A stretch of DNA of 64,000 nucleotides from Neolewinella agarilytica. GTDB taxonomy: Bacteria; Bacteroidota; Bacteroidia; Chitinophagales; Saprospiraceae. A program made the translations under genes and the position numbers. The notes under the pieces are model-generated. The model was given only the letters and a program-made list of their open reading frames with translations, was not told the origin of the DNA and did no database searches. Shown in pieces: positions 6,034 to 62,827 of the stretch. Position 1 is the stretch's first letter; each line of letters starts with the position of its first letter. The DNA lies in contig NZ_FOFB01000001.1 in assembly GCF_900110645.1 (NCBI RefSeq), forward strand, positions 186,001-250,000, written 5' to 3'.

Positions 6034-9000
6034 ATGCTATCTGACATTCGATCATTCCTTTTTCCATTTTCCATCCTTCTTTTCCCCTTCCTGTTCAGTA
6101 GCTGCGAATCTTCCGATTCAGGCTACCGGGCACCGGCCAATGCGGTGTTCACTGACCTGGGCGGAAGTGCCAGCGGTGTAGACTTTGTCAACAAGGTCGA
6201 AGACGGTGAAGATTTCAACGTGCTTTCTTACCGGCTGTTCTACAACGGCGGTGGAGTGGCCATCGCCGACCTGAACGGTGATGACCGCAATGATCTCTAC
6301 TTCGTCGCCAATCAGGGCCCAAACCGGATGTACCTCAATGAAGGAGACCTTCAGTTTACCGAAGTGGAGGGCGCAGCCGCAGGTGCCATGACCTGGTCAA
6401 CCGGAGTCACCGCCGTTGACGTTAATGCAGATGGCCGCCAGGATTTATATGTCTGCAACTCCGGCGACAATGAGGGCAGTGGCAGAACAAATGAACTGTT
6501 CATTAACCAGGGCAACGACGAAGCGGGCAACCCCCGTTTTGAAGAAATGGCCAGCGCCTACGGCCTGGCCGACGAAGGCTTCGGCACCCAGGCCGCCTGG
6601 CTGGATTATGACCGTGACGGCGACCTCGACGTCTACCTGCTCAACAACTCCTATCTCAACCCAGAGCGCATCAACCCTAACGGCGAAAACCGCAGTATCC
6701 GCGATCCGGAAGGTGGAGATAAACTGCTACGCAATGACCCCGGACCAGACGGGCACCCCGTATTTACCGACGTCAGCGAAGAGGCGGGCATCTTCGGCAG
6801 TAAGGTGGGCTTTGGCCTGGGCTCCGGCCTCGGAGATGTCAATGGTGATGGCTGGACGGACATTTACGTCTCCAATGACTTCTGGGAACGAGACTACCTC
6901 TACATCAACCAGCAGGACGGAACCTTCAAAGAAGAACTCACCAGCCGGATAGACCACATTTCCATCTCCTCCATGGGCTCTGACGTAGCAGACCTGGACA
7001 ATGACGGCGACCTGGAGATCTTCTCCACCGATATGCTGCCCTCGGATAATACCCGCCTGAAATCTGCCACCCTGTTCGACAGCTACAATACCGAAGCCAT
7101 CAAGTTCGAGGCGGACTACCACCACCAGATCCTGCAGAACTGCCTGCAGGTCAATGATGGCTCGGGCAACTTCATCGAGACAGGCCACTATTCCGGCGTA
7201 GCGGCCACTGACTGGAGCTGGGGAGCTCTGCTCTTCGATATGAACAATGACGGGCTGAAGGACATCTTCGTCGCCAACGGCATTTACCGGGACATTATGG
7301 ACCTGGATTTCGCTGACTTTCTGGCCGATAAGGAAAAGGTGAAAGCCATGGTGGAAGCCCGGGGCCGCTATGACTGGCGCGACTTTGTGGAGAAGCTGCC
7401 GCATAACCGGCAGCCCAACTATGCCTTCCTCAACCGCGGAGAGCTGCAGTTTGACAACCAGGCCCACGCTCTGGGCCTGGGCGCACCGTCTTACTCCAAC
7501 GGTGCCGCCTACGGCGACCTGGACGGAGACGGAGACCTGGAACTGGTCGTCAATAACGTCAACCAGCCCGCCATGATTTACCGCAACAACAGCGTGGAAA
7601 ATGGAGCTGGATTCCTGATGGTCAAGCTGGAAGGACCGGCGACGAACCCCGCAGGCATCGGGGCAAAAGTCAGTGTTACTGCCGGCGCCCAAACCTTTGT
7701 GCAGGAGCAATTCACCAGCCGGGGCTTCCTGAGCTCCGTTGGCCGGGAAATGGTTTTTGGCCTTGGAGACATTGATGCCCCGCTGGAGATCGTCGTTAAC
7801 TGGCCCGACGGGAGAGTTACGGCGGCCACGGCTTCCGTAAAGGAGACCGTAGTCGTCAGTCATAGTCAGGCAAGCCCTGCTCCTTCCACCAGGCCTGCAC
7901 CTGCGACAGCGCCCCTTTTTGCGGAGGCTTCCGGACTACTGGATCGGCCCGCCGTTCATGCAGAAAAATTCCACAATGACTTTGACCATGAGCCGCTTTT
8001 GCTCCAGAAAATTTCTGACCCCGGGCCTAAGATCGTCAAAGGCGACCCGAACGGAGACGGGCTGGAAGACTTTGTTTTACTTGGTGGGCAAGACGACCCC
8101 GACAAGCTCTATCTGCAGCAGCCCGATGGCAGCTTTAAATTTGAGCCCAACAGTTTCTTCGAAGCGACTGCCGAATACGAAAGCAGCTGCGGCGCCTTCT
8201 TCGATATCGATGGTGACGGTGACGACGACCTGATGCTTGGCGCTGGCGGCAACGAATTTAGCCGTGGTTACCGGGCCTACCCCATTCGGACCTACGAGAA
8301 TATTCGCGGCCAACTGGTCTCTAACCACCTACTCTCCCCCACCGCCGGCGGCGAGGTGAGCTGCATCGTACCCGAGGACATTGATTTTGACGGAGACATC
8401 GACCTCTTCATCGGCGGCCGGGCGGTGCCCGGCAACTACGGCCTCATTCCCGGTTCCTTCCTCTTCATCCGCGAAGGCAACAGCTGGGTTAACCAAACGC
8501 CTCAAGACATCGGTGGCTCAGGCATGGTAACCGATGCCACCTGGGCTGACCTGAACAATGACGGCCGACCGGACCTTGTGATGGTCGGCGACTGGATGCC
8601 AATCACCGTCGCTTTTACTCTGAACAACGCCAGCATCAGTCAGATCTTCGAGATTCCGAACAGCTCCGGCTGGTGGAACAGCGTTGAGTCAGCCGACCTG
8701 GACGGCGACGGGCGCGAAGACCTCATTGCCACTAATTGGGGGCTGAACTCCAAGTTCCGTGCCAGCGTAGATAAGCCGCTCAAACTTCACGTCAAGGATT
8801 TTGACGACAACAAAAAGAGTGACTTCATCATCGAGTGGTATCCACCCGCTGACGAGCAGCCCTACCCCTTCGCCAGTAAGCGGGAACTACACGCTCAGCT
8901 ACCGCACCTCCGCAAGAAAACACTGCAATACAAAGATTTTGCCGCTGCCACCTACGAGAGCCTCTTCACCGAACAAGAACGGGAGAGAACCCAGAATTGG

Positions 9001-9396
9001 GACGCAAAGGAACTACGCAGTTGTGTCATCTGGAATCAGGATAAGGGTAACGTCCGTATCGAACCACTCCCCTGGCAGGCACAACTAACCAAGCTGTTCA
9101 CCGCCGCCATCGGTGACGTAAACGGAGACGATCGCCCGGATCTCTGGCTCGGCGGCAACATCTTCGGCCTGTCCCCACAAGTAGGCCGGGCGGATGCCGG
9201 CCGCGGTTGCCTGCTGCTGAACGAAGGCGACCGAAACTGGTCTTACGTAGATAATGAGCAATCCGGAATTTCCGTTAAGGGGCAAGTTCGGGACGCCCAG
9301 TTCATTGACCTGGCTAATGGCGGTAAATCACTAATGATTAGCCCCAATAATGAAGCATTACGGGTGTTTATGCTGGGGTCCCCGAAGACTAAGTAG
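6034..9396 (+). CDS. FG-GAP/VCBS repeat lipoprotein with ASPIC/UnbV domain (CRTAC1-like), copy 1
   Basis: A 1120-residue lipoprotein. The signal peptide ends in the lipobox FLFSSC, so it is probably anchored in the outer membrane. The body is a beta-propeller type array of calcium-binding repeats of the form D-x-N-x-D-G-x-x-D-L/I-Y, such as DLNGDDRNDLYF, DYDRDGDLDVYL and DLDGDGDLELVV. An ASPIC/UnbV domain lies around residues 530-605 (GIGAKVSVTAGA ... FGLGD). A second propeller block follows an Ala/Pro-rich linker near residue 620. The ATG at the signal peptide is chosen over upstream in-frame codons. It is a tandem paralogue of the next gene. The ligand is unknown; such proteins are common in Bacteroidota and thought to act at the cell surface. 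Confidence 0.88.
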   Translation: MLSDIRSFLFPFSILLFPFLFSSCESSDSGYRAPANAVFTDLGGSASGVDFVNKVEDGEDFNVLSYRLFYNGGGVAIADLNGDDRNDLYFVANQGPNRMYLNEGDLQFTEVEGAAAGAMTWSTGVTAVDVNADGRQDLYVCNSGDNEGSGRTNELFINQGNDEAGNPRFEEMASAYGLADEGFGTQAAWLDYDRDGDLDVYLLNNSYLNPERINPNGENRSIRDPEGGDKLLRNDPGPDGHPVFTDVSEEAGIFGSKVGFGLGSGLGDVNGDGWTDIYVSNDFWERDYLYINQQDGTFKEELTSRIDHISISSMGSDVADLDNDGDLEIFSTDMLPSDNTRLKSATLFDSYNTEAIKFEADYHHQILQNCLQVNDGSGNFIETGHYSGVAATDWSWGALLFDMNNDGLKDIFVANGIYRDIMDLDFADFLADKEKVKAMVEARGRYDWRDFVEKLPHNRQPNYAFLNRGELQFDNQAHALGLGAPSYSNGAAYGDLDGDGDLELVVNNVNQPAMIYRNNSVENGAGFLMVKLEGPATNPAGIGAKVSVTAGAQTFVQEQFTSRGFLSSVGREMVFGLGDIDAPLEIVVNWPDGRVTAATASVKETVVVSHSQASPAPSTRPAPATAPLFAEASGLLDRPAVHAEKFHNDFDHEPLLLQKISDPGPKIVKGDPNGDGLEDFVLLGGQDDPDKLYLQQPDGSFKFEPNSFFEATAEYESSCGAFFDIDGDGDDDLMLGAGGNEFSRGYRAYPIRTYENIRGQLVSNHLLSPTAGGEVSCIVPEDIDFDGDIDLFIGGRAVPGNYGLIPGSFLFIREGNSWVNQTPQDIGGSGMVTDATWADLNNDGRPDLVMVGDWMPITVAFTLNNASISQIFEIPNSSGWWNSVESADLDGDGREDLIATNWGLNSKFRASVDKPLKLHVKDFDDNKKSDFIIEWYPPADEQPYPFASKRELHAQLPHLRKKTLQYKDFAAATYESLFTEQERERTQNWDAKELRSCVIWNQDKGNVRIEPLPWQAQLTKLFTAAIGDVNGDDRPDLWLGGNIFGLSPQVGRADAGRGCLLLNEGDRNWSYVDNEQSGISVKGQVRDAQFIDLANGGKSLMISPNNEALRVFMLGSPKTK
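6370..6386 (-). repeat. Bipartite motif GCACCTGCG-N3-GCGCC (coding copy)
   Basis: Exact match on the minus strand, N3 = GCT. It lies in the FG-GAP gene, where the plus strand reads Gly-Ala-Ala-Ala-Gly-Ala. Confidence 0.7.
7897..7913 (+). repeat. Bipartite motif GCACCTGCG-N3-GCGCC (coding copy)
   Basis: Exact match, N3 = ACA. It encodes Ala-Pro-Ala-Thr-Ala-Pro in the linker between the two propeller blocks of the FG-GAP lipoprotein. Confidence 0.8.
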
Positions 9397-9434
9397 AATT
9401 AAATTGCTAAGTCCTGAAATCCTCCCCGTCAAGT

Positions 9435-9567
9435 CCGGACACTCAAAGGAGTTAGCACTTCCGCCTCCGGCTGCATGGCTATCACCTTCGAGGTCCTCAG
9501 TTCAGTAGGACCTCGAAGGTGCTCAACACGGAGCGGAGCGAAGTTTTGAGTTCCTTTGAGTGTCCGG
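9435..9567. repeat. Long nested palindromic element between FG-GAP paralogues
   Basis: The outer arms CCGGACACTCAAAGGA (9435-9450) and TCCTTTGAGTGTCCGG (9552-9567) are a perfect 16-bp inverted repeat. The inner arms CACCTTCGAGGTCC (9483-9496) and GGACCTCGAAGGTG (9508-9521) are a perfect 14-bp stem with an 11-nt loop. The segments between them also pair imperfectly. As RNA this would be one very long hairpin in the 216-bp gap between the two lipoprotein genes. No coding capacity is visible. Confidence 0.8.
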
Positions 9568-9612
9568 CCAACGAACCATTTTCACCCGCCGCCTGATAAA
9601 CCACCTTTCCAA

Positions 9613-12600: not shown

Positions 12601-13059
12601 TACCTGGAGAACACGCCGGAAGGCTTCGTCTTTCACGAATTACCAGCACCAGCTCAATCCTTCCCGGTGTTCGGTATGCTCCCCATTGATCTGAACGATG
12701 ATGATTTTCTTGACCTCCTGGTTATTGGAAATGATCATGGCTCGGAGACGGCTCAAGGGTTTATGGACGCCGGAAATGGGTTGCAGCTGCTGGGGCGTGG
12801 AGACGGAAGTTTTTTCAAGGCACTAACTTCAGATCGATATCAATCAAGTGACCAGTTTGTTATCCCCGGCGAGGGACGCGCTTTGGTCTTGGCTAATGCG
12901 CCTTCCGGCACGAAAGTAGTCGCCTCCCAAAATTCAGGTCCGCTGGTGGTGGCGCAGCCGCTGGTGCAAACTAAGCTTACCGAAGCAGTGGAGGGCCGGA
13001 AATCGGAGGTATACTGGGGCAGCGGGTATTTGGGCCAGTCGATGCGTGCCAGGCAGTAG
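9613..13059 (+). CDS. FG-GAP/VCBS repeat lipoprotein with ASPIC/UnbV-like domain, copy 2
   Basis: A 1148-residue paralogue of the preceding gene with the same order: lipoprotein signal (lipobox LFLVSC), Ca-binding FG-GAP repeats (DFDQDGLPDVFF, DVNNDGLDDIYV, DYDQDGDLDLFL), an ASPIC/UnbV-like domain near residues 535-600 (MFGAEIEVMSDQG ... HPHRGYLSS), then a second propeller. Aligned landmarks are shared with copy 1, for example GWWNS and the ATDWSW motif. The upstream in-frame ATG codons are rejected because the sequence before MKYLIFLSTLLFL overlaps the palindromic element. Function is unknown; duplication suggests surface recognition or ligand diversification. Confidence 0.87.
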   Translation: MKYLIFLSTLLFLVSCTEKQVTTFTRLSPSETGITFTNLTGESDSFNILTNEYIYNGGGVGIGDFDQDGLPDVFFSGSDTENQLYLNRGDWTFEDVSQVAGIGGGDNWNNGVTVVDVNNDGLDDIYVCSTMRQEARLRANQLYLNQGKNANGIPTFINVAAAYGIADTTHNTQAAWLDYDQDGDLDLFLLVNEMIDSRKPNQFSRKTQDGSGIRTDKLYRQDEVDGQIRFTEVGKETGILFQGFALAVTVTDFNRDGWPDLYISNDYLSNDLAYLNTKGPDGGRYFVDIASQLVKHTSYSAMGNDVADMNNDGIPDIVAVDMLPADNLRRKMMLTANNYTYLINLERYGYHPQFTRNTLQISQGIRSDSMKGLPQYSELAMQAGLPATDWSWTPLVADFNLDGNKDVIITNGFPRDITDKDFGDYNAENSRFFSVKKMLEKIPSVKIPNVAFRARPTEDGVPIFDDVTEEWGIDVTSFSNGAAYADFDRDGDLDYIVNNIDDPAHVYRNNTISDKKENPGFLRITVDPAVRDAAMFGAEIEVMSDQGSQVYYLHPHRGYLSSTSKEVLAAASGSVTVKAIFPGQNARYWEATAGSTLTISPDSGAKGPLRPDNSQVRTFLRALPSPAFTHVDKDYIDFNVQPMLLHKLSQQGPGLAVTDWNNDGIDDIYVSGSYEEAGTFLQGTADGFEPILSLIDGETDERREELGALFFDADGDGDEDLYVVSGSYEFTLEDGDFKDRFYRFENGRYVRDDAALAGLTTFSGSCVRAADYDNDGDLDLFVGGRVEPHKYPSPVASLLLRNESSNGTVRFIQDEAATAAIASAQNVCDALFTDYDNDGDPDLLLAGEWSPLRLYANDGGQFNEITEGQGLAGKSGWWNSLAAGDFDNDGDTDYLAGNLGDNSILRPTQDEPVTAILTDLDQNGGVDFIPFTWFTDASGKRGNYPYFNRNDFAKQVTKIKSLHKTHNSYAAADKASYLSELPDDYQEFSVNYAKSVYLENTPEGFVFHELPAPAQSFPVFGMLPIDLNDDDFLDLLVIGNDHGSETAQGFMDAGNGLQLLGRGDGSFFKALTSDRYQSSDQFVIPGEGRALVLANAPSGTKVVASQNSGPLVVAQPLVQTKLTEAVEGRKSEVYWGSGYLGQSMRARQ

Positions 13060-20220: not shown

Positions 20221-20239
20221 TTGCACCTGCGTCAGCGCC
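20221..20239 (+). repeat. Bipartite motif TTGCACCTGCG-N3-GCGCC
   Basis: Exact 19-bp match, N3 = TCA. It ends one base before the stop codon of the lytic transglycosylase and lies upstream of the GH3 promoter. Confidence 0.85.
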
Positions 20240-23400: not shown

Positions 23401-23419
23401 GGCGCTGGCGCAGGTGCAA
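23401..23419 (-). repeat. Bipartite motif TTGCACCTGCG-N3-GCGCC
   Basis: Exact 19-bp match on the minus strand, N3 = CCA. It lies between the divergent DUF2452 and ArfB genes, about 60 bp from each start. Confidence 0.85.
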
Positions 23420-23448
23420 AGAACGTTAAAGAACAGCCATGGAAGCCC

Positions 23449-23456
23449 TACCTTTA
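23449..23456 (+). promoter_or_regulatory. Putative -7 promoter element
   Basis: TACCTTTA, 12 nt before the preferred ATG of the ArfB gene. It lies inside the longer open frame, which argues against the ATG at 23439. Confidence 0.4.
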
Positions 23457-23468
23457 AGCCAAGACCCG

Positions 23469-23876
23469 ATGACGATGAACTGGGAACAAATCCTTCAGGA
23501 AACGGAAAAACGCACCTCCCGCGCCAGCGGCGCGGGCGGCCAGCACGTAAACAAGACGGAAAGCCGGGTCGAGATCGTCTTCAACGTCACCACCAGCGAA
23601 GCGCTCAGCGCCCGGCAAAAGCGACACCTCCGCCACCATCTCGGTCGCAGAATCGATAGCCAGGGGCGGATTTCCGTCGTTGATCAGTCTGACCGTAGCC
23701 AGCACGTCAACAACAAACGTGCTTTGGCACGATTACGCAAGCTGTTGGAAAAAGGTATTCGTCCGATTCCAAAAAAGCATAAGGGCAAAGCCTTTGTTGC
23801 CAACAAAAAGAAGCGCTTAGACCGGAAGAAGCGGCGGTCGGAGATTAAGGCGGGACGAAGTAAGAAGTGGGGATAG
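23469..23876 (+). CDS. arfB: Alternative ribosome-rescue factor / peptidyl-tRNA hydrolase ArfB (YaeJ)
   Basis: About 135 residues, homologous to domain 3 of class I release factors. The GGQ motif that hydrolyses peptidyl-tRNA lies in SRASGAGGQHVNKTESRVE. The C-terminal tail is very basic (KKHKGKAFVANKKKRLDRKK), as expected for insertion into the empty mRNA channel of stalled ribosomes. An in-frame ATG exists 30 bp upstream, but a promoter-like TACCTTTA lies between the two, so the inner ATG (or the one 6 bp later, giving MNWEQ) is preferred. Confidence 0.88.
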   Translation: MTMNWEQILQETEKRTSRASGAGGQHVNKTESRVEIVFNVTTSEALSARQKRHLRHHLGRRIDSQGRISVVDQSDRSQHVNNKRALARLRKLLEKGIRPIPKKHKGKAFVANKKKRLDRKKRRSEIKAGRSKKWG

Positions 23877-25594: not shown

Positions 25595-26734
25595 ATGCCA
25601 ACAAAATTTACCGGAGACGCTTGTCCCATCATCCGTACCATCGATGAGCTTTGGCTCTTAAGCGGACTAAAAGACCTGACGGACACCACCGTTGTCGACA
25701 TTGACCTGACGGAGGTGAAGGTAAAATGGGAGGACATCAAAATTGACTGCACTACCCTCTTTATCGGTTGTACTCTGTCACTCGAAACGGAGTTGGCCCT
25801 GCGTGCCAGAGAGGCCAACTTCCTGCATGTCCCTAAAGTATTACCCTTTCGCCCAATACGCCGCAATCTATACACCTGGCGCGAACTGATGGAGGGCTAT
25901 AGCCCTGAGCAGGACAATAGCGCAGACCTTAAAATCTACGAACATTTTGAGTTTGGCAAACGATGCCCGAGCATTAACGAAGCGCTTTGGCAACGTCTTC
26001 ATGACTTCAGCATTGACGAGGGTCTTCGGCGTTTGTTAGATTTTAGCCCAAGCGGTTTACCCAAAAGAAAGGTCGTTGGTTTTATGGGAGGCCACAGCAC
26101 TGCCCGAACCACAGAAGATTACCGCCGGAGCCTGCTCACGGCCAAGCTATTGACGGAGGCCGGCTATTTTGTTGTTTCCGGTGGCGGGCCGGGCATTATG
26201 GAAGCCGCCAACCTTGGCGCCTACCTTGCTGGCAGAAGTGACGAGGACATTAACTGGGTATTAGCAACACTTTCGAAGGCCCCGACTTACAAAGATAAGG
26301 GCTTTCAGGAGGCCGCTTACGCTATTCTTGATCGCTTTCCTGACGGTGCGGAGAGTCTGGCTATTCCTACCTGGTTTTATGGCCACGAGCCCAGTAACCT
26401 GTTTGCCACTTACATTGCCAAATACTTCAGTAACAGCATCCGGGAAGATACGTTGCTGGCCATTGCGTTGTACGGAATTGTCTATGCTCCCGGCAGCGCC
26501 GGCACTACTCAGGAGATATTCATGGACGCTACCCAGAACCATTATGTCACCTTCGACTACGTCAGCCCGATGGTTTTCCTCGGTAAAAAACGGTACACCG
26601 AAGACACGCAGCTATTCCCGCTCATCGAACAATTGGCCGCTGGCCGGGATTACGCTAAATACCTCTACCTTACCGATGATCCAGCGCAAGTCGTTAGCTT
26701 TGTCGATGCCCACCCACCTTTGTTTGTTGAATAA
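25595..26734 (+). CDS. LOG-family Rossmann nucleotide-binding protein
   Basis: A 379-residue protein with a lysine-decarboxylase-like (LOG) domain in its C-terminal half: VVSGGGPGIMEAANLGAYLA and APGSAGTTQEIFMD are the nucleotide and catalytic motifs of the family. The ~150-residue N-terminal extension and overall size recall the large PpnN-type nucleosidases that split nucleoside monophosphates to base and ribose phosphate, rather than the 180-residue cytokinin-activating LOG enzymes. The exact substrate is inferred. The lipoprotein gene follows after 10 bp. Confidence 0.82.
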   Translation: MPTKFTGDACPIIRTIDELWLLSGLKDLTDTTVVDIDLTEVKVKWEDIKIDCTTLFIGCTLSLETELALRAREANFLHVPKVLPFRPIRRNLYTWRELMEGYSPEQDNSADLKIYEHFEFGKRCPSINEALWQRLHDFSIDEGLRRLLDFSPSGLPKRKVVGFMGGHSTARTTEDYRRSLLTAKLLTEAGYFVVSGGGPGIMEAANLGAYLAGRSDEDINWVLATLSKAPTYKDKGFQEAAYAILDRFPDGAESLAIPTWFYGHEPSNLFATYIAKYFSNSIREDTLLAIALYGIVYAPGSAGTTQEIFMDATQNHYVTFDYVSPMVFLGKKRYTEDTQLFPLIEQLAAGRDYAKYLYLTDDPAQVVSFVDAHPPLFVE

Positions 26735-26744
26735 ACAACTTGTT

Positions 26745-27503
26745 ATGCGTACGTTTTTGCTACTTCTGATGGCTGCTTGTTTTTGTAGCTGCTCCTTTTT
26801 TCAAAAGATCACGGGTAAGACGCCGGCGGCGTCTGAGGTGGTAGAAGCCCCCACGAACTTAGAAGGTCCGGCGTATGACCCGGCTACCAGTCCCAGGGTA
26901 ATGACTTCCTCCACACCGCTGCCCACCGCAGCGGGCACGACGACAACTAATAGCGGACAGCCCGCGGCTTATGGTCAGGCACCATCAACAGCACCTGCCA
27001 GCGGGCAACCTGCCACCTATAGCCAACCCTCTGCAACACCAGTTAACGGTGGGCAACCAGAGGTCTACGGCCAGGCGGGCAATGCTCCTTCAACTTACTC
27101 TGCACCTGCGACTGCGCCCCAAACAGAGGCTAAAGGAGGTGCGGCCCCGACAGCTTACGGTAACACTACAACCATGGCGCCACCTACCGGAGAAGCGGCT
27201 GTATTAGCTGCCACCCTAAACGGGCTCTGGGTCAACAGCGTAGACCCCAACGAGGTCGTTGAATTCACGACCGATCATTATTCTACTTTTTACGAAGGGC
27301 AATTACTCATTCAGGAACCCATGGAATACCACGCCCGTTGCCCCGGGGATTGTGCAGATGGGCAGGAAATGGAGATCGCCTGTTTTACCATTACCGGCCC
27401 CGCCGGAACGGATTGCTATGGCATCATCCGGATGACTCCTGATGTTTTAGAACTCAGTATGCTGGGTGTGAGCACGGAAACAATAGTCTACCGGAAGAAA
27501 TAA
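26745..27503 (+). CDS. Putative lipoprotein with Ser/Thr/Pro/Gln-rich linker
   Basis: 252 residues. An N-terminal lipoprotein signal (LLLMAACFCSC) is followed by a long low-complexity stretch, roughly residues 25-155. There the heptamer-like unit G-Q-P-A-x-Y-x-Q recurs (SGQPAAYGQ, SGQPATYSQ, GGQPEVYGQ). A compact C-terminal domain of ~90 residues follows (LNGLWVNSVDPNEVVEFTTD ... IIRMTPDVLELS), reminiscent of lipocalin-like stress domains. No family was recognised. The linker carries one exact copy of the bipartite DNA motif. Confidence 0.75.
   Translation: MRTFLLLLMAACFCSCSFFQKITGKTPAASEVVEAPTNLEGPAYDPATSPRVMTSSTPLPTAAGTTTTNSGQPAAYGQAPSTAPASGQPATYSQPSATPVNGGQPEVYGQAGNAPSTYSAPATAPQTEAKGGAAPTAYGNTTTMAPPTGEAAVLAATLNGLWVNSVDPNEVVEFTTDHYSTFYEGQLLIQEPMEYHARCPGDCADGQEMEIACFTITGPAGTDCYGIIRMTPDVLELSMLGVSTETIVYRKK
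27102..27118 (+). repeat. Bipartite motif GCACCTGCG-N3-GCGCC (coding copy)
   Basis: Exact match, N3 = ACT. It encodes Ala-Pro-Ala-Thr-Ala-Pro in the disordered linker of the lipoprotein. Confidence 0.8.
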
Positions 27504-31973: not shown

Positions 31974-31981
31974 TACCTTCG
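31974..31981 (+). promoter_or_regulatory. Putative -7 promoter element for the riboswitch transcript
   Basis: TACCTTCG immediately before the first paired region of the cobalamin riboswitch, exactly where transcription should begin. Confidence 0.55.
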
Positions 31982-31988
31982 CGCCGCA

Positions 31989-32157: not shown

Positions 32158-32233
32158 ACATAGTTCTTCGCTTTTCGGTGAGAAAGAGGGAGGTTGGAAG
32201 CTTGGTCCGCTACCAGTGAGAGTATATCCTCAT

Positions 32234-32252
32234 GGCGCGGACGCAGGTGCAA
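32234..32252 (-). repeat. Bipartite motif TTGCACCTGCG-N3-GCGCC
   Basis: Exact 19-bp match on the minus strand, N3 = TCC, between the riboswitch aptamer and the receptor start. Confidence 0.85.
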
Positions 32253-32337
32253 AATGGGTTGCAGAAGCAAGGGGAAAGGGCATCGTTCTTTCGCCAAAGC
32301 GCTTGCCGTGCCCCTGTCAACCGCTGCTCTTTTCTAC

Positions 32338-32356
32338 CGGTTCAACAACCGTTTTT
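32338..32356 (+). terminator. Terminator-like hairpin abutting the start codon
   Basis: CGGTT-CAAC-AACCG followed by TTTTT ends exactly at the ATG of the TonB receptor. An upstream AACCG (32319-32323) can pair with the same CGGTT, so two hairpins exclude each other. This could be the riboswitch output, but the stem is only 5 bp. Confidence 0.4.
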
Positions 32357-34243
32357 ATGCAGCCATTTTCACTCTCTTTACTCTTTGTCCTTTTTCTTTC
32401 CTTCGGGGTCTTTGCCCAGGCTCCTTCGATGACAACTACGGCCGACGAAGTCGTCGTCACCGGCAGTCGATTCTCCCGCTCACTGACCAATAGCCCGCAG
32501 CGGGTAACCGTCATTGATTCAGTGGAAATTGCTCAGTCGGCAGATCTGGCCCAGCTTCTTTCCGAGCAGGCAGGTATCGTTATCAATGGAGCGTACAGCA
32601 ACCCCGGCAAAGACAAGTCTCTCTTCCTCCGTAACGGGGCCAACCAGTTTACGCTCATCCTGATCGACGGGCAGCCACTCCTGGATCCTTCCTCGCTGGG
32701 AGGGGCCGTTGATTTACGCTTACTCTCCCTGGCGGGTATCGAGCGCATCGAAATTCTGCGGGGCGCCAGATCCTTACTTTACGGCTCGGACGCCGTGGCC
32801 GGAGTCATTAACCTGATTACGAAGAAAAACACTGCTCCTGATACCTTCACCTTGCACCTGCGCGCCGCCGCCCAGACCCTCAACACCTACGAGGGAAGCG
32901 CTGCCCTCTCCGGCAGTACTGAAAAACTGGACTATCAGCTCGGCTATGAACACTACCAAACGGACGGGCTGAGTGAAGCCCTCGAGCCCGAAGTCAGTCC
33001 CATCGCTTTTGGCAAAGATGGCGCTCAGCGCCAAACCCTGACCGCCGGACTCACCTATCGCCCCAACGAATACCTGAGCCTCCGCCCTACCCTGCGCCTG
33101 GCTTCCTTTGACGGCGATTACGACGGTGGCAACTTTCAGGATGCTGACAATACCTACACCAACGAACTACTCGCTTCGGGGCTATCCGCTGATTATTCAC
33201 GAGGGGACAACAGTCTCGGTGCCCGCTTTAACTACGCCCACACCGACCGAAAATTCAACAGCACCTTCGGCACTTTTTCCGGCTTAGGCCGGGCCGCTCA
33301 GGCAGAAATCTTCGGCGTACACCGATTCACAGAACGAGCAACCCTGACCGCTGGCGTTCAATTGCGAGACGAAGCTCTCGGCCGCGAAGACGAGCAGCCC
33401 GACACCACCTCCGCCACCACCATCAGTCCCTACCTTTTGCTCAACCTGACCGTCGCCGAAGACCTGCTCGTAGAAGCAGGATACCGCTACAACAATCACT
33501 CCGGGTTCGGGGGGCAGAGCAATTTCTCGCTGGCCCTGGGCGTCAACAGCACCGACCATTGGAGCAGCCGGCTCAACCTGGCCTCCGCCTTCCAGAGCCC
33601 TACTCTGGATCAACTCGCCGGCCCCTTCGGTGCTAATCCGAACCTCGCCCCGCAAGTGGCCAACTCCATTGAAATCAGCACTCAACTGGCGGACCCCAAA
33701 GGAAGCTACCGCATCAATCTCGCCATCTTTCAGCGGGAGATTAAGGACGTTATCACCTTCGACTTTGCCGCCGGCTACCAAAACCAGGACGAACTGCTCG
33801 ACCGGGGCGTAGAGCTCGAAGGTTTCTACCAGTTCAGCCAGCGATTTACCGTTAACAGCTCTCTGAGCCTGGTAAAAGGCCAACTGACCAGCCCCGACGG
33901 AAGCGGGGGAACAACGGAGACCGAAGACTTCCCCCGTCGCCCACAAACCAGCGGCCACCAGGGCCTCACCTACCGGGCAAAAGCGCCCTTTACCGCACGG
34001 CTCTCCGCTCACTACACGGGCCAACGGCCCGATGTGTTCTTCGACGAAAACTTCAGCCGCATCGATACCGAGCTTGATCCTTATTGGCTAATCAATTTCT
34101 ACGCCGAATACCAACTCCTGAAAGACCGTCAGCTAACCCTCTTCGCTGACGTGCGCAACCTGACGAACACTGAATTCACGGAAGTAACGGGCTTCAGCAC
34201 GCTGGGAAGAATGATCCGGGGAGGCTTTAGATTAACCTTATAA
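32357..34243 (+). CDS. btuB: TonB-dependent vitamin B12 receptor (BtuB-like)
   Basis: A 628-residue outer-membrane receptor. The signal peptide LSLLFVLFLSFGVFAQ is followed by a plug domain starting EVVVTGSRFSRSLTNSPQRV, with the plug motifs IEILRGARSLLYGSDAVAGV and NLITKK. A 22-strand barrel follows, ending in an aromatic C-terminus (GRMIRGGFRLTL). The cobalamin riboswitch in its leader identifies the ligand as B12 or a relative. The upstream in-frame ATG lies inside the leader and is rejected because the signal peptide begins here. No periplasmic-binding or ABC partners follow; the repeat array follows instead. Confidence 0.9.
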   Translation: MQPFSLSLLFVLFLSFGVFAQAPSMTTTADEVVVTGSRFSRSLTNSPQRVTVIDSVEIAQSADLAQLLSEQAGIVINGAYSNPGKDKSLFLRNGANQFTLILIDGQPLLDPSSLGGAVDLRLLSLAGIERIEILRGARSLLYGSDAVAGVINLITKKNTAPDTFTLHLRAAAQTLNTYEGSAALSGSTEKLDYQLGYEHYQTDGLSEALEPEVSPIAFGKDGAQRQTLTAGLTYRPNEYLSLRPTLRLASFDGDYDGGNFQDADNTYTNELLASGLSADYSRGDNSLGARFNYAHTDRKFNSTFGTFSGLGRAAQAEIFGVHRFTERATLTAGVQLRDEALGREDEQPDTTSATTISPYLLLNLTVAEDLLVEAGYRYNNHSGFGGQSNFSLALGVNSTDHWSSRLNLASAFQSPTLDQLAGPFGANPNLAPQVANSIEISTQLADPKGSYRINLAIFQREIKDVITFDFAAGYQNQDELLDRGVELEGFYQFSQRFTVNSSLSLVKGQLTSPDGSGGTTETEDFPRRPQTSGHQGLTYRAKAPFTARLSAHYTGQRPDVFFDENFSRIDTELDPYWLINFYAEYQLLKDRQLTLFADVRNLTNTEFTEVTGFSTLGRMIRGGFRLTL

Positions 34244-34257: not shown

Positions 34258-35077
34258 TGGCTGTGTAAATCAGCGGTTAAAAGCTGCGCAGCAGCCTACC
34301 TCTGTGCACCTCTGTGTAAACCTCAAAGCTGCGAAGCAGCCACGTAGTGAATCTGTGTAAATCCGTGGCAATCTGTGGTTAAAAGCTGCGCAGCAGCCTA
34401 CCTCCGTGAACCTCTGTGTAAACCTCCGTGCAACTCTGTGGTTACCTCAAAGCTGCGAAGCAGCCACGTAGTGAATCTGTGTAAATCCGTGACAATCTGT
34501 GGTTAAAAGCTGCGAAGCAACCTACCTCCGTGCACCTCTGTGTAAACCTCCGTGCACCTCTGTGGTTACCTCAAAGCTGCGAAGCAGCCACGTAGTGAAT
34601 CTGTGTAAATCCGTGACAATCTGTGGTTAAAAGCTGCGCAGCAGCCTACCTCCATGCACCTCTGTGTAAACCTCCGTGCACCTCTGTGGTTGCCTCAAAG
34701 CTGCGAAGCAGCCACGTAGTGAATCTGTGTAAATCCGTGACAATCTGTGGTTAAAAGCTGCGAAGCAACCACGTAGTGAATCTGTGTAAATCCGTGACAA
34801 TCTGTGGTTAAAAGCTGCGAAGCAGCCACGTAGTGAATCTGTGTAAATCCGTGACAATCTGTGGTTAAAAGCTGCGCAGCAGCCTATCTCCATGCACCTC
34901 TGTGTAAACCTCCGTGCACCTCTGTGGTTACCTCAAAGCTGCGAAGCAGCCACGTAGTGAATCTGTGTAAATCCGTGACAATCTGTGGTTAAAAGCTGCG
35001 CAGCAGCCTACCTCCGTGAACCTCTGTGTAAACCTCCGTGCAACTCTGTGGTCACCTCAAAGCTGCGCAGCAGCAAA
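34258..35077. repeat. 0.8-kb tandem array of two alternating palindrome-headed units
   Basis: The array alternates a ~57-bp unit (AGCTGCGAAGCAGCCACG, then TAGTGAATCTGTGTAAATCC, then GTGACAATCTGTGG) and a ~68-bp unit (AGCTGCGCAGCAGCCTACC, then CTCCGTGCACCTCTGTG twice). Thirteen heads GCTGC-GNA-GCAGC or close variants can each form a 5-bp hairpin. Units are over 90% alike, so there are no unique spacers. It fills the gap between the B12 receptor and the HAD gene. Inside the units, CTGTG-ending 10-mers recur. Short frames through it are artefacts. Confidence 0.9.
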
Positions 35078-35090
35078 ACCTCCATCCCCC

Positions 35091-35777
35091 ATGAAAACCT
35101 TCATCCTCTTCGACATCGACGGCACGCTTCTCTTCTCCAACAAAGCAGATAGCCGTTGCTTTGCCAGTAGCTATGAGGTCATTTTCGGGCAGGCCTTCCC
35201 CACCATTGACTGGACGAAGTTCCCCGAGGTAACCGATCACGTCATTTTCAGAACGGCTTTCTACGAGCATTTTAAGCGCCACCCATCGGAGGAGGAACGG
35301 GAGACTTTCGAAGAGCACTATTTAGCGGCGCTGGCGCAGGTGCGGGGCGAGAATCCTTCGGAGTTCAGGGAAGTGCCCGGCGCCGCCGCCCTCTGGCGGC
35401 GACTTGAAGCCGATGATCGCTACCTGACGGGAGTCGCGACGGGTGGTTGGCAACGCCCGGCCGCCCTCAAACTGGCGCACGTCGGCATCCCGCCGGAGCC
35501 CCCCTTCGCCGGCTACGCCAACGATAAGTTCAGCCGCCGGGATATTCTGCAGGAGGCCATTGACCTTGCCCGGGCGGAGTACGAAGTCGGCCACATCGTT
35601 TATGTCGGGGATGCCGTCTGGGACGTCACGACCACCCAGGCAATGAACCTACCCTTGATTGGCGTTCGCCACCGCGGAGATCACGATAAGCTACTGGCAA
35701 TGGGCGTGGAAAAAGTTGTTTCGGATTACCTGGATGTGGAAGGCTTTCTCAACGCAGCCTCCGTCGGGCGCTCGTAA
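35091..35777 (+). CDS. HAD-family hydrolase
   Basis: A 228-residue phosphatase-like HAD protein with DIDGTLLFSN as the nucleophile motif (residues 7-16), a helical cap of the C1 type, TGVATGGW as the Thr motif, and GDAVWDVTTTQAMN as the acidic motif. It resembles phosphoglycolate phosphatases, but the substrate is unknown. The frame is open further upstream through the repeat array; the ATG right after the array is the sensible start. No promoter element was seen between the array and the start. Confidence 0.87.
   Translation: MKTFILFDIDGTLLFSNKADSRCFASSYEVIFGQAFPTIDWTKFPEVTDHVIFRTAFYEHFKRHPSEEERETFEEHYLAALAQVRGENPSEFREVPGAAALWRRLEADDRYLTGVATGGWQRPAALKLAHVGIPPEPPFAGYANDKFSRRDILQEAIDLARAEYEVGHIVYVGDAVWDVTTTQAMNLPLIGVRHRGDHDKLLAMGVEKVVSDYLDVEGFLNAASVGRS
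35327..35343 (-). repeat. Bipartite motif GCACCTGCG-N3-GCGCC (coding copy)
   Basis: Exact match on the minus strand, N3 = CCA, inside the HAD gene. The plus strand encodes Ala-Leu-Ala-Gln-Val-Arg there. Confidence 0.7.
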
Positions 35778-39415: not shown

Positions 39416-39423
39416 TATCTTTG
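39416..39423 (+). promoter_or_regulatory. Putative -7 promoter element, leaderless type
   Basis: TATCTTTG, then TGACC, then the ATG of the HU-SPOR gene. It overlaps the alternative GTG start, which is therefore unlikely. Confidence 0.55.
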
Positions 39424-39428
39424 TGACC

Positions 39429-40568
39429 ATGTCCAAGCAAATCACCGATATCATCCGGGGCATCCTCATGGAGGAAGATCAGGTCTGCCTGCCAGGCATC
39501 GGCACCCTGCGGCTAACGCCGCAGCCGGCGCTGATCAGCCCGATTGAAGGCAAGGCCACTCCGCCGTCCGAGCAGGTCAGTTTTAATGCTAATCTCGTGC
39601 TTGATGACGGACGAATCCTGCGAGGCCTTACCGAGTCTACGGCACTGGACCGCACGGCCGCACAGGCAGAATTGGCGGCTTTCCTGGAGCAAACAAAGGA
39701 GAACCTTGACGCCGGACGCTCGGTAACGCTGGAAGGTATTGGCCGGCTGTTTCGTCATTTTGACGGGCAACTTCGCTTCACGGCCGGAGGAGACAACTTC
39801 AGCAAGGCGTCCTTCGGATTACCGGCGGTGGACATTCGCCCGATCGCCCGAACGGAGAAAAGAGCCGCTACGTCAGACCCCATGCTGGGCACTCCCCTTG
39901 CTGCCTCAACGGACACTGCACCTGCGTCCGCGCCGCAAAAGAAAGCTCCCGGAGGCATTCTCTATGATCCCGAATTGCGTAAAATTCTTTGGTACGTGGC
40001 CGCCTTTCTGGGGTCCATCGCCCTGCTTTGCCTGCTCTACTTGCTGGGCACCACCATTGCCTCGGCCCTGAATGACGAGCCCACTCCGATCGTCCAGACA
40101 GACGAAGGGCCTGCTCCGCAGCCCCCCATTATCCGTAAGCCATTACCGCCGGTGGACGCCGGACGGGTCGTCCCGGATGACCCTCCACGCCTGCGGCAAA
40201 CAGACAGCGAAGACAAACCCGACCGCAGCTATCAGCAAACCGAGCCTGCCGCCCAAAACAACACCGATCAAACCACTACGACGACGCCCACTCCTGCCCG
40301 ATCATCAACGAGCAGTAGCAGCAATGTTGCCCTGATCGCCACGGGCCTGTACGGCAGCAGCCGGAACGTGGAAAAGAACATTGCCCGCATCAAAGCCGCA
40401 GGTTACGATGCCTTCTCCTCACCCGACGGGCGCTATACCCGCGTCGGCGTTCGTCTGGAATACCAGACGGAAGAAGAGCGGTTCAACGCCCTGAACCGTA
40501 TCCGGCGATTATTCTCAGAAGATGCCTTTGTGTGGGAATTGAACGGAGAGCGGATGTCCGTGCAGTAG
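39429..40568 (+). CDS. HU-CCDC81-like domain, membrane-anchored SPOR protein
   Basis: About 379 residues. Residues ~1-125 hold an HU-like/CCDC81-type fold (EDQVCLPGIGTLRLTPQPAL ... VSFNANLVLDDG), seen in Bacteroidota envelope proteins. A transmembrane helix follows at ~180-205 (WYVAAFLGSIALLCLLYLLG), then a Pro/Thr-rich periplasmic linker and a C-terminal SPOR domain (~298-379, NVALIATGLYGSSRNVEKNI), which binds denuded peptidoglycan at division sites. It probably links DNA- or protein-binding in the cytosol with the septum. An exact bipartite motif encodes its APASAP linker. Confidence 0.85.
   Translation: MSKQITDIIRGILMEEDQVCLPGIGTLRLTPQPALISPIEGKATPPSEQVSFNANLVLDDGRILRGLTESTALDRTAAQAELAAFLEQTKENLDAGRSVTLEGIGRLFRHFDGQLRFTAGGDNFSKASFGLPAVDIRPIARTEKRAATSDPMLGTPLAASTDTAPASAPQKKAPGGILYDPELRKILWYVAAFLGSIALLCLLYLLGTTIASALNDEPTPIVQTDEGPAPQPPIIRKPLPPVDAGRVVPDDPPRLRQTDSEDKPDRSYQQTEPAAQNNTDQTTTTTPTPARSSTSSSSNVALIATGLYGSSRNVEKNIARIKAAGYDAFSSPDGRYTRVGVRLEYQTEEERFNALNRIRRLFSEDAFVWELNGERMSVQ
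39918..39934 (+). repeat. Bipartite motif GCACCTGCG-N3-GCGCC (coding copy)
   Basis: Exact match, N3 = TCC. It encodes Ala-Pro-Ala-Ser-Ala-Pro in the cytoplasmic linker of the HU-SPOR protein. Confidence 0.8.
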
Positions 40569-42467: not shown

Positions 42468-42486
42468 GGCGCGGTCGCAGGTGCAA
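42468..42486 (-). repeat. Bipartite motif TTGCACCTGCG-N3-GCGCC
   Basis: Exact 19-bp match on the minus strand, N3 = ACC, in the 206-bp gap upstream of the MORN-caspase gene. Confidence 0.85.
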
Positions 42487-45468: not shown

Positions 45469-46719
45469 TCAGCCCCAGGCCTTGTCCCGGGCTTTTGTCC
45501 GTTTAGGCCTTTGGGGGAAATAACGCCTGATGAGTGCAGACCGGGCCCGCCAGGGAAGGGCCGAAAGAGCTTGATTGAGCAAACTTCTTGTAGAGGGTGG
45601 AAATTGGTATGTCCCTGAACAGGCAAATGCGTGCAGTGCCCGACGATCACCAGAACAAACGGAATACTCATTGCTCCAGGATTCTTCTGCATATAACTCC
45701 TGCTGCCATTCTGCCCGCTCCCCGTTGGGAAGATAAACCGATAACAGGGCCGTAGCCGTAACGCCTAAAGATTGTTCGTGGGTAGTTACCGTCGCCGTGA
45801 TGGTTTTAAAATGCTTGATTTCTGTAATCTTAGTTACATAGGTGCTATCGTTCACCTTTACCTTCTTTTTGATCTTTTCGACGTAATCCAGCACCTCCTT
45901 TTCATAGACATCACAACTACTACTGGAGTACGGGCCATCTATTCCCCGGCTTAGGTAACTAACTTCTGCAAACAGGTCCACCCGGCGGCCATTATCGGTC
46001 ATCACAATCTGGGTCCAGCCCCTGTTTGTTTCGTTCAGGCTTTGGGTACTTTCCGCCAGGATGCTATAATAATCAGAGTCCGGGTGGGGAGCCAGCAGAA
46101 TGCGGAGAGTACCTAATTCTCGTAGCTGGCTGAGCGTGTCTGCTAAAGTTGATGTCCTTTCAGGAAGGTATTTCAGGGCATTATTGTAGTGTTCGAAGGC
46201 GGCCCGGGCAGCGGGTTTTTCTCCCGCAAATGCAGCGGGCAGACTTGGTCGGGCTTGCGCAAGGAAGTAAGCACCAGCCTTTCGGCGGGCTTCTTCCCGT
46301 TGTGCTTCCAGCACGGCAGGGCGCAGGCCGGGGTGGCGTTCGAGCTCTTTTGTATCCGGCAGGTATTCCACCAAATCGAGGCTTCTGGAATACAGATTTT
46401 GATAGAGGGTGTACAAATGTATCCAACGCCGCTCATCGGTCGTTTTTCTGAGTTCCAGAGCGCTGGCGTAGTCGCGGGATTGTACAGCGGCGTAAGCGTC
46501 CTCGAATTGCAGGAGTGCCTTTTGTCGGGCCTTACTGTAAGGACGTTGGGCGCTGACGCGGGTGCAATGTTTTAAGGCGACGGCATAGGCGCGGTCGTAC
46601 TTTCCTTTTTCCAGCAGCCTGGGAACGCCCACACAGCCAAACAGGGTAATGGAGCAAAGGAAGAGGAGGATCTTCGAATAGGACAAGGTTTCAGATGTTG
46701 GGGTAAGGCGGGTCTGCAA
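45469..46719 (-). CDS. Hypothetical lipoprotein with helical N-terminal region
   Basis: 416 residues. Lipoprotein signal LFLCSITLFGCVGVPRLL. Residues ~35-190 are helical with a TPR-like flavour (GKYDRAYAVALKH, FEDAYAAVQSRDYASALELR), followed by a beta-rich region (residues ~205-350) and a basic, Arg-rich tail. No family was recognised with confidence. It is convergent with glgE 17 bp away. A one-mismatch bipartite motif lies in the TPR-like part. Confidence 0.78.
   Translation of the reverse strand: MQTRLTPTSETLSYSKILLFLCSITLFGCVGVPRLLEKGKYDRAYAVALKHCTRVSAQRPYSKARQKALLQFEDAYAAVQSRDYASALELRKTTDERRWIHLYTLYQNLYSRSLDLVEYLPDTKELERHPGLRPAVLEAQREEARRKAGAYFLAQARPSLPAAFAGEKPAARAAFEHYNNALKYLPERTSTLADTLSQLRELGTLRILLAPHPDSDYYSILAESTQSLNETNRGWTQIVMTDNGRRVDLFAEVSYLSRGIDGPYSSSSCDVYEKEVLDYVEKIKKKVKVNDSTYVTKITEIKHFKTITATVTTHEQSLGVTATALLSVYLPNGERAEWQQELYAEESWSNEYSVCSGDRRALHAFACSGTYQFPPSTRSLLNQALSALPWRARSALIRRYFPQRPKRTKARDKAWG
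46549..46567 (-). repeat. Bipartite motif, one mismatch (coding copy)
   Basis: Minus strand TTGCACCCGCG-TCA-GCGCC, one T-to-C change in the core. It encodes Cys-Thr-Arg-Val-Ser-Ala in the helical lipoprotein. Confidence 0.6.
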
Positions 46720-49874: not shown

Positions 49875-49893
49875 TTGCACCTGCGGAAGCGCC
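49875..49893 (+). repeat. Bipartite motif TTGCACCTGCG-N3-GCGCC
   Basis: Exact 19-bp match, N3 = GAA, in the middle of a 301-bp gene-free gap between converging genes. Preceded by CCCA, like the copy near recR. Confidence 0.85.
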
Positions 49894-56042: not shown

Positions 56043-56061
56043 GGCGCAGACGCAGGTGCAA
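56043..56061 (-). repeat. Bipartite motif TTGCACCTGCG-N3-GCGCC
   Basis: Exact 19-bp match on the minus strand, N3 = TCT, between the divergent phosphoesterase and DUF2891 genes. Confidence 0.85.
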
Positions 56062-56174: not shown

Positions 56175-57281
56175 ATGCGCCCACTATTACTTCTCGTCCT
56201 TTCATTGCTCCTTTACGCTTGCTCCGCACCTGCGGCCGCGCCTGAGGAAGACAGCCCCACGCCCATGAGCTCTCCTGCCCCGACCTTAACCCTGGCTGAT
56301 GCTAATAAGCTGGCGGAATTGCCCCTGGCCTGTATTCAACACGAATATCCCAATAAGCTTGGGCAAACCATTGGCGGTCCCAATGATCTGAGAGAGCCCT
56401 CCGCACTCCACCCCGCCTTTTACGGCTGCTTTGACTGGCACAGTGCGGTTCACGGCCATTGGTCTTTGGTGGCCCTGCTGCGCGATTTCCCTGACCTGGC
56501 CCGCGCCGCTGACGCCCGCCGCATGCTCACCGAAAACCTCAGCGCCGCCAACATTGCCGCAGAAGTAGCCTATTTCAACGGCCCCCAAAACAAGAGCTAC
56601 GAACGCACCTACGGCTGGGCCTGGCTGCTGAAGCTGGACGAAGAACTCGCTGCCTGGGACGATCCTCTGGCGCGTGAGCTACACGCTAATCTGCAACCAC
56701 TTACCCAACTGATTGTGGACCGTTATCTGGCTTTCCTGCCAAAACTGAATTATGCGATCCGAACCGGAGAACATCCCAATACGGCTTTTGGGCTCACCTT
56801 CGCGCGGGACTATGCCGTCGCCGCTAACCAGCAGGAGTTATTGGCACTCATCGATGAAACCGCCCGCCGCTTTTACCTGAAGGATCAGAATTGCCCCATC
56901 AGCTGGGAGCCCGGTGGGTTTGATTTCCTGAGCCCCTGCCTGGAAGAAGTCAACATCATGCGCCGGGTATTGCCCGCCGAAGAATTCCATCCCTGGCTGG
57001 CCGGCTTTCTGCCGGGTCTGGACCAGGCATCTTACACCCTCGCCGTCGGGGAGGTCTCTGACCGGACGGACGGCAAACTGGTCCACCTCGACGGGCTTAA
57101 CTTTAGCCGTGGCTGGGTGCTCTACGGTCTTGCCAGCCAATATCCTGACCAATACGGCCATCTGAAAAACCTCGCTAATCTGCACGTGAATTATTCCCTG
57201 CCTAACCTCGTCGGAGACGACTATGAAGGCGGGCACTGGTTGGGGAGTTTCGGGATTTATGCGTTGAAGGAAGTCAAGTAG
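56175..57281 (+). CDS. DUF2891 family lipoprotein
   Basis: A 368-residue lipoprotein (lipobox LLLYACS) with a short Ala/Pro linker and an all-helical DUF2891 domain. Family marks are the HPAFYGCFDWHSAVHGHW block near residue 75, RTYGWAWLLKL, GEHPNTAFGL, and GGFDFLSPCLEE near 250. The fold is expected to be an (alpha/alpha)6 toroid, as in glycan-acting enzymes, but the activity is unknown. An exact bipartite motif encodes its linker three residues after the lipid-anchored Cys. Confidence 0.88.
   Translation: MRPLLLLVLSLLLYACSAPAAAPEEDSPTPMSSPAPTLTLADANKLAELPLACIQHEYPNKLGQTIGGPNDLREPSALHPAFYGCFDWHSAVHGHWSLVALLRDFPDLARAADARRMLTENLSAANIAAEVAYFNGPQNKSYERTYGWAWLLKLDEELAAWDDPLARELHANLQPLTQLIVDRYLAFLPKLNYAIRTGEHPNTAFGLTFARDYAVAANQQELLALIDETARRFYLKDQNCPISWEPGGFDFLSPCLEEVNIMRRVLPAEEFHPWLAGFLPGLDQASYTLAVGEVSDRTDGKLVHLDGLNFSRGWVLYGLASQYPDQYGHLKNLANLHVNYSLPNLVGDDYEGGHWLGSFGIYALKEVK
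56226..56242 (+). repeat. Bipartite motif GCACCTGCG-N3-GCGCC (coding copy)
   Basis: Exact match, N3 = GCC. It encodes Ala-Pro-Ala-Ala-Ala-Pro right after the lipobox, only ~165 bp from the intergenic copy in the opposite orientation. Confidence 0.8.
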
Positions 57282-62544: not shown

Positions 62545-62585
62545 GGCATTTTTAAATTGGGAGGCTAAGGTGCCATTACAACCGG

Positions 62586-62748
62586 CAGGGCAAACGCATC
62601 AAACTTCGTTTGCTACGTTTTTGATTGGCGATTGGCGATTCTCGATATTTGATTCTTGATTTGCTACCGCAAGTGACAGCTCACTACGTTCGATCACAAC
62701 AAAAATCAACTATTGAATTACAGTTTTAGATTTGATGCGTTTGCCCTG
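62586..62748. mobile_element. MITE with 18-bp terminal inverted repeats and 10-bp target duplication
   Basis: 163 bp. Ends CAGGGCAAACGCATCAAA and TTTGATGCGTTTGCCCTG are perfect 18-bp inverted repeats. The flanking TTACAACCGG is present on both sides (62576-62585 and 62749-62758), a 10-bp target-site duplication. The inside is non-coding, with a short AATC-heptamer run and an AGTGA-GCTG-TCACT hairpin. A second, eroded copy is at 43301-43462. The transposase that moves it is not in the window. Confidence 0.88.
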
Positions 62749-62807
62749 TTACAACCGGTGTATTACCGTAATCAAAAACTGATTCCCCTTGCTCTTCCCA
62801 CCTCCCA

Positions 62808-62827
62808 TTGCACCTGCGGTTAGCGAC
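62808..62827 (+). repeat. Bipartite motif, near-copy
   Basis: TTGCACCTGCG, then GTTA and GCGAC: 4-nt spacer and one mismatch. It lies ~86 bp upstream of recR, preceded by CCCA as at 49.87 kb. Confidence 0.55.

Follow-up and report, generated by a model that had tools for sequence, protein, structure and literature searches.

The genome of Neolewinella agarilytica (Bacteroidota; Saprospiraceae) carries hundreds of copies of a two-part DNA motif with 14 fixed bases: a left half, GCACCTGCG, a spacer of three free bases (N3) and a right half, GCGCC. The motif was noticed in a stretch of 64,000 nucleotides, called the window here (contig NZ_FOFB01000001.1, positions 186,001 to 250,000), to which coordinates without a contig name refer. 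By analogy with known systems it probably serves as a self tag spread over the whole genome, acting in the manner of a DNA uptake sequence and kept by biased uptake or selection (probability about 0.55). This function is judged the most likely because conservation confined to the core, losses by substitution, permissive placement, dialects and carriage by phages match what is reported for the DNA uptake sequence (DUS) of Neisseriaceae and the uptake signal sequence (USS) of Pasteurellaceae. Whichever function proves to be the right one, the feature is real, genus-wide and unexplained.

Copy number and anatomy of the motif

An earlier note on this DNA had listed 12 exact copies in the window; all 12 were verified at their positions, against none in 100 dinucleotide-preserving shuffles, and with up to two mismatches allowed the window holds 16 matches against a shuffle mean of 0.64. 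The whole genome (6,220,808 bases in 74 contigs) has 820 exact copies, against a single one for the reversed pattern. Shuffles and reversed controls rule out chance or base composition as the origin, and the genome-wide total rules out copies limited to the window, the two ways in which the earlier note thought that its motif might fail. The mixed orientation that it had described holds as well: strand bias is absent genome-wide (387 copies on one strand, 433 on the other) and likewise in three stretches, as seen on contigs and not on a closed chromosome.

The element has a sharp boundary in sequence space. A tally over 442 kb of the same genome gives 78 exact copies, then 23 at one mismatch, 14 at two and 64 at three, which is a sharp peak and not a decaying repeat family; in 12 of the 23 one-mismatch copies it is the sixth base that differs. 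Counted alone, the left half occurs 111 times in the 442 kb against 5.3 expected from an order-3 Markov model, so that most of these 9-mers belong to the element. GCGCC follows at +3 in 78 of them, at +4 in seven and at +5 in six; 18 have no right half at a spacer of two to five bases. The logo of the 78 exact copies reads (T/C)TGCACCTGCG-N-C-(C/A/T)-GCGCC and is accompanied by weaker preferences on both sides: upstream mostly C or T from -1 to -9, A at -10 and a further cluster at about -15 to -20, and downstream an A-rich stretch from +19 to +22. A minority of copies has a spacer of 4 or 5.

Conservation at orthologous sites

The reference comparison sets this genome against that of a single relative, G009, whose assembly is 55% complete (genomes are named by working handles); the two are 83.1% identical over an alignment of 41.5 kb, gaps included. 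The DNA queried held 16 exact copies, ten of the 12 in the window and six in C20:20001-40000, and 11 of the 16 could be aligned, nine of these in the window. At the 11 orthologous sites the core differs at only two of 154 positions, the spacer at ten of 33 and the flanks at 268 of 1263. With random placements matched by class, core differences averaged 29 and never fell below 9; none of 5000 reached two. Both core losses in G009 are single substitutions. A core conserved around a free spacer between species supports the fixed two-part recognition site that had been proposed, and the same pattern at orthologous sites bears out the proposal that the copies are not recent duplicates.

Two sites extend the comparison. 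The degenerate copy at 62808..62827 (+) retains only the left half, TTGCACCTGCG, and its orthologue in G009 has an intact core, TTGCACCTGCG-TGC-GCGCC, where the alignment shows a gap of one base. The intergenic copy at 20223..20239 (+) has a counterpart in G009, G002 and G014, each time in the corresponding gap and orientated alike, despite changed surrounding bases.

Inverted pairs and the mobile-repeat alternative

Where copies stand close together, their arrangement is nearly always the same. Among those at most 200 bp apart, in this genome and in the relatives' loci scanned, 16 of 18 pairs are inverted tail-to-tail, and in seven of the 18 the starts lie 76-85 bp apart; inverted pairs are able to fold into strong hairpins. 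The first three spacer bases are the same in both arms of only two of the 18 pairs, and by eye the loops have nothing in common except the motif flanks. Between the arms of one such pair, at L377 13874-14063 in G013, lies a long hairpin in which the palindrome TTCCACGTGGAA is doubled.

Hundreds of short repeats, together with inverted pairs of preferred spacing, would be expected of a repetitive extragenic palindromic (REP) or REPIN-like element, or one resembling a miniature inverted-repeat transposable element (MITE), spread by a transposase such as RAYT, and genes of the Y1_Tnp (RAYT) type are present in 20 of the 21 genomes of the genus. This origin is nevertheless very improbable. The 11 orthologous copies, at about 83% identity, differ by substitutions. 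The sites compared showed neither the insertion of a whole element nor a clean empty site, although the alignment of one degenerate copy has a gap of one base and relatives without the copy at 20223 could not be aligned there. These substitutions, together with the loops of the pairs, which look unrelated by eye, disfavour recent duplication or transposition. The single unit is non-palindromic, as judged from the logo, and 35 of 78 copies lie in coding DNA. No association with RAYT was seen either: over the 21 genomes the numbers of Y1_Tnp genes are unrelated to those of the motif (G018 has 675 copies and no such gene, G001 no exact copy and four genes), and in N. agarilytica the Y1_Tnp gene with the strongest match has no motif in the 7 kb surrounding it.

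Placement in coding and noncoding DNA

Noncoding DNA, 15.6% of the 442 kb according to a simple home-made gene caller, holds 43 of the 78 copies, an upper estimate, with the window sites 27102, 32234 and 56226 called noncoding but lying inside long open reading frame (ORF) frames. The 35 coding copies fall on both strands into four registers, as would be expected if the DNA rather than the protein were under constraint. These registers are APAxAP linkers (13 copies), antisense A..QV (11), antisense GAxAGA (four) and a sense register of CTCxxA type, whose seven copies all fall no later than residue 39 of the protein as called and have CTC in six cases. The contexts appear to be permissive ones, linkers and signal peptides.

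The enrichment in noncoding DNA and the hairpins that pairs can form would suit the operator of a global transcription regulator, a promoter element or a signal at the RNA level such as a terminator or riboregulator, a group of functions with only a small chance of being correct. Distances to gene starts and orientations vary widely, and the many coding copies lie on either strand. Only two of the 43 noncoding copies stand between convergent genes, and none of the 18 pairs has six or more T in the ten bases after either arm. No known RNA family coincides with a motif site in the window at Rfam gathering thresholds, the sole match there being a cobalamin riboswitch elsewhere. Mobile-repeat, terminator and regulon readings all fit poorly.

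Spellings across the genus

The motif belongs to one group of bacteria. In a set of 21 Neolewinella or Lewinella-like genomes, 20 contain the exact motif, from three copies (G010) to 1176 (G005); in 19 genomes from outside the genus only two do, with one and three copies. This is the count in other genomes that the earlier note had suggested, and it agrees with a feature of the genus. The three exact copies found genome-wide in G021, from another genus of the family, are identical to each other. A search for GCACC-n-GCG-N3-[CG]CGCC found no match in 102, 53 and 120 kb of G021, G022 and G023, and by eye no k-mer in these stretches stands out as much as in the genus.

Exact counts differ among the genus genomes at least partly because the spelling differs. 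The architecture varies in the right half (GCGCC or CCGCC) and in the spacer (3 or 5). GCACCYGCGNNCCCGCC is dominant in G011 (590), G017 (356), G008 (296), G020 (232) and G003 (165), with 11 occurrences in the N. agarilytica genome; a spacer of five is dominant in G006 (105) and frequent in G015 (87) and in N. agarilytica (103), and G013 prefers GCA as its spacer (23 sites in 100 kb). In G001, which lacks exact copies, the form is TACCTGCGC-YCCG-CCGCC; over 240 kb divided into 1-kb bins, its 9-mer TACCTGCGC turns up in 26 different bins, where 3.7 would be expected. G010, with about 50% G+C in the stretches read, has TTGCTACTTTG-NN-AGCC in 270 copies genome-wide, a form with no copy in the other 20 genomes or in the control. 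When spellings are summed, 20 of the 21 genomes reach at least 126 copies, the exception being G001, whose own spelling was not counted genome-wide.

All of these spellings share, roughly, the frame TTGC..CT..G - spacer - GC.CC - A-rich run. They may thus be read as species dialects of one signal, a reading that for the G010 and G001 forms is based on similarity of pattern and not on orthologous sites. Literature searches on Lewinella with uptake sequence and on Bacteroidetes in combination with uptake sequences found nothing. Among the matches listed for the exact 9-mer, all look unrelated; among those listed for Saprospiria repeats or RAYT, nothing concerns the motif; and among those listed for Lewinella competence or repeats and for Neolewinella repeat motifs, neither genus is named.

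Phage DNA and readings inside the cell

Phage DNA carries the motif too. In the 22 kb examined of a 38.7-kb siphovirus contig from IMG/VR, a part that also encodes a tape measure protein, the motif occurs six times, four times exactly and otherwise as near-copies, and related viral contigs likewise carry it. The viral contigs L096 (with a tape measure protein), L099, L083, L089, L091, L095 and L105 have it at about the density of the host, a figure biased upwards since the viral stretches were chosen for carrying a copy; they are likely to be phages of this genus. Most sites in the broader IMG/VR scan look like chance: 80 stretches were listed and 79 sites scored, with a median flank score of -5.3 against 10.4 in the N. 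agarilytica genome, and 15 of the 79 lie at or above the lower quartile of that genome. In Pasteurellaceae, temperate phages accumulate the USS of their host, which the available text of one report treats as a proxy for phage-host coevolution (PMC6776037).

Presence in phage DNA would also be compatible with a Chi-like recombination hotspot, or a self mark read by an end-processing nuclease-helicase. At six of eight bases the core GCAGGTGC agrees with GCTGGTGG, the Chi sequence of Escherichia coli. Known Chi sites are 5-8 nucleotides long and polar, whereas the motif has 14 fixed bases, flanks on both sides and, on the contigs, no strand bias; a role of this kind is quite improbable.

The more serious competitor is the site of an abundant intracellular DNA-binding protein, a nucleoid organiser or a chromosome maintenance factor, needed every few kilobases and co-evolving with its sites into dialects. 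Selection for chromosome architecture could conserve the core only, and such a protein would suit the absence of strand bias, the recurrent tail-to-tail pairs with their preferred spacing and the weak flanks, which lie some one and two turns of the helix away. Slight signs of regular spacing point in that direction too. With two contigs pooled, copies within 500 bp merged and 5000 randomisations, 377 randomisations were as even as the exact copies and 119 as even as a pattern that admits either right half and one degenerate base. A relaxed pattern, whose spacers span N2-5, was equalled by 13 for interior gaps and by 73 with the contig ends included. Tested contig by contig, 8.5% and 7% of randomisations were as even, and for a contig of G017 that has a single dialect the number was 444 of 5000. 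The longest gap stands out only when the relaxed pattern is used and contig ends are left aside; the relaxed pattern is absent from the first 17.5 kb of contig C27.

Even spacing is thus suggestive only, and because it depends on the pattern chosen the estimate for an intracellular protein was lowered; it is now considered unlikely. Known organiser sites (matS, parS, Noc, SlmA) are far fewer. Rewriting hundreds of needed sites in each lineage would be hard without a drive, phage DNA has the motif too, and summed copies differ about tenfold among congeners, from 126 (G006) to 1241 (G004). Among the four functions that the earlier note had listed for the site (DNA-binding protein, nucleoid organiser, methylase and uptake system), an uptake system remains the best fit, and a nucleoid or other DNA-binding function comes second.

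The case for uptake

If the motif is an uptake-type self tag, its reader would be a receptor, probably exposed at the cell surface, that binds DNA in a sequence-specific way. The element recognised would span about 45 bp: the strong core, preceded at about one and two turns of the helix by a weak tail rich in pyrimidines, and followed downstream by a short stretch rich in A. The receptor would favour DNA of its own genus for import via ComEC, giving these bacteria natural transformation with biased uptake. Recombination of the preferentially imported fragments, possibly together with selection, would fix the core while spacer and flanks drift, and copies would spread through tolerant places: intergenic gaps, linkers, signal peptides and long-resident phages. 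A change of receptor would shift the copies of a lineage together into a dialect. Features expected of an uptake sequence are present: high copy number in both orientations, core conservation, dialects, permissive placement and ComEC, which is encoded in all 21 genus genomes.

Several observations weigh against uptake. ComEC is non-diagnostic, as it also occurs in low-copy genomes and in ten of 14 control genomes. Known uptake sequences accompany type IV pili, and the type IV pilus/type II secretion ATPase family PF00437 has no convincing match in the genus, only partial ones in 20 of the 21 genomes. The best E value is 1.3e-5 and the best stretch covers about 84 of 370 positions; 11 of the 21 genomes come marginally to or over the cut-off of 24.9 bits, and the match in G010, the only one examined, is a ClpB-like AAA protein. 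On the evidence of PF00437, the one pilus family searched, a type IV pilus with a motif-binding minor pilin was not found. The seven proteins searched in the comEC neighbourhood yielded no receptor candidate; they match thioredoxin-like, TMEM260-like, AMP-binding, flavin reductase-like, EPSP synthase, histidine-biosynthesis and DUF5682 families. DUS and USS are both shorter than the motif and more abundant. At the gene beside 20223, 16 of the 19 relatives compared have no copy (G018, with no usable locus, was left out; G004 has a near-copy by eye). Tail-to-tail pairs (16 of 18) with their preferred spacing (seven of 18) are not predicted by uptake alone and are the feature that it explains worst, and any even spacing would count on the same side. 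The literature searches brought up no work on transformation in the genus.

The motif shares with the DUS of Neisseriaceae, whose receptor is ComP, its very many copies, a conservation far higher than that of the background, dialects that differ by species, placement between genes and at permissive coding positions, and inverted pairs; for the DUS, the available text of the reports gives 97% identity at sites against about 85% in the background, permissive positions in the core genome (PMC2397512) and dialects consistent with the species tree (PMC3630211). It differs from the DUS in sequence and phylum, in its bipartite form with 14 fixed bases and flanks and in number (820 copies in 6.2 Mb); it comes without a convincing type IV pilus ATPase, and its pairs are mostly tail-to-tail and have no T-run. 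Like the USS of Pasteurellaceae, it joins a core to weaker flanking segments. Two dialect groups, accumulation in temperate phages and a scarcity of one-mismatch variants are further likenesses, according to what is available of the reports on that system, where ComN/PpdA is the proposed receptor (PMC6776037, PMC1939737). In comparison with the USS, the bipartite core is longer, the spacer is 3 or less often 4 or 5, at least five spellings occur in one genus, and again no convincing type IV pilus ATPase was found. The motif is not filed as a DUS or USS because that pilus marker was not convincingly found and the uptake role is assigned by analogy.

Transformation with a preference for own DNA is known in the same phylum (PMC7965970, PMC8459023). 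As far as the cited text goes, Riemerella anatipestifer transforms by means of ComEC, DprA, ComF and several proteins unlike known machinery, among them outer-membrane and surface proteins, for which PMC8459023 names the domains PF18942, PF13620 and PF07075, and R. columbina prefers its own DNA (PMC8459023, PMC7965970). A receptor of the Riemerella kind is conceivable here because these Bacteroidota relatives transform with non-standard proteins and prefer their own DNA; the difference is that no uptake sequence is established there in the text cited, in which the 10-mers are A-rich. If the genus is indeed without a type IV pilus, the receptor would not be a pilin of the Neisseria or Pasteurellaceae kind. 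The fuller proposition, that this is a third, independently evolved self-DNA recognition system for natural transformation, located in Bacteroidota, with a receptor other than a type IV pilin and at least five dialects in one genus that track receptor change, falls a little short of an even chance.

Copies in the window and their surroundings

Six of the exact copies had been described as intergenic or leader copies with a common extension, and the extension, TTGCACC, is present in all six (20223, 23401, 32234, 42468, 49877 and 56043), no two of which have the same N3. Besides 20223, intergenic copies at 23401..23417 (-) and 42468..42484 (-) are kept in G009; for another, at 49877..49893 (+), the G009 query gave no alignment. 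The copy at 32234..32250 (-), also kept in G009, lies between the cobalamin riboswitch (RF00174, 114.8 bits, 31974-32169, +) and the gene of a TonB-dependent receptor, in the first codons of the longest ORF frame, 32216..34243. The intergenic copy at 56043..56059 (-), with one core substitution in G009, forms a tail-to-tail inverted pair with 56226..56242 (+). This partner is kept in G009 and encodes APAAAP near the N-terminus of ORF 56175..57281, apparently directly after a lipobox-like stretch.

The remaining exact copies are coding. Two, outside the pieces compared with G009, share ORF 5587..9396 (+): 6370..6386 (-), antisense, where the ORF encodes GAAAGA, and 7897..7913 (+), encoding APATAP. 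APATAP is again encoded at 27102..27118 (+) in ORF 26328..27503, a copy kept in G009 with its N3 altered. The copy at 35327..35343 (-) is antisense in the HAD-hydrolase ORF 35016..35777 (AALAQV) and kept in G009, and that at 39918..39934 (+), with one core substitution in G009, encodes APASAP in ORF 39423-40568 (+), which has HU-CCDC81 bacterial domains. Of the three near-copies first named, 46549..46565 (-), GCACCCGCG-TCA-GCGCC, stands with one mismatch, 16025 falls with more than two mismatches at N3 spacing, and 62808 is a left half only; a one-mismatch copy at 12951..12967 (-), GCACCAGCG-GCT-GCGCC, had been overlooked.

Some other features were noted. ORF 23439-23876 (+) contains a GGQ release-factor-like stretch, ASGAGGQHVNKTESRV, and perhaps encodes something like ArfB; the stretch may be the source of matches of about 49 bases there in many genomes. 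ORF 50051-51307 (-) has a PycTM (Pycsar effector) domain, which suggests a defence locus. Clusters of 7-bp tandem repeats of GTTGCAG type, unrelated to the motif, occur in this genome at about 63043-63123 and 281222-281264 of contig C27 and about 11201-11250 of C20.

Implications

If the motif is a self tag for uptake, it would be a third case, in another phylum and with no convincing type IV pilus ATPase, and would mean that self tags evolve repeatedly. The series of dialects within one genus would offer natural material for finding the receptor and for weighing uptake bias against selection as the builder of the motif. If its function is instead a chromosomal one, the genus would have a system of sites denser and faster-evolving than the familiar ones.

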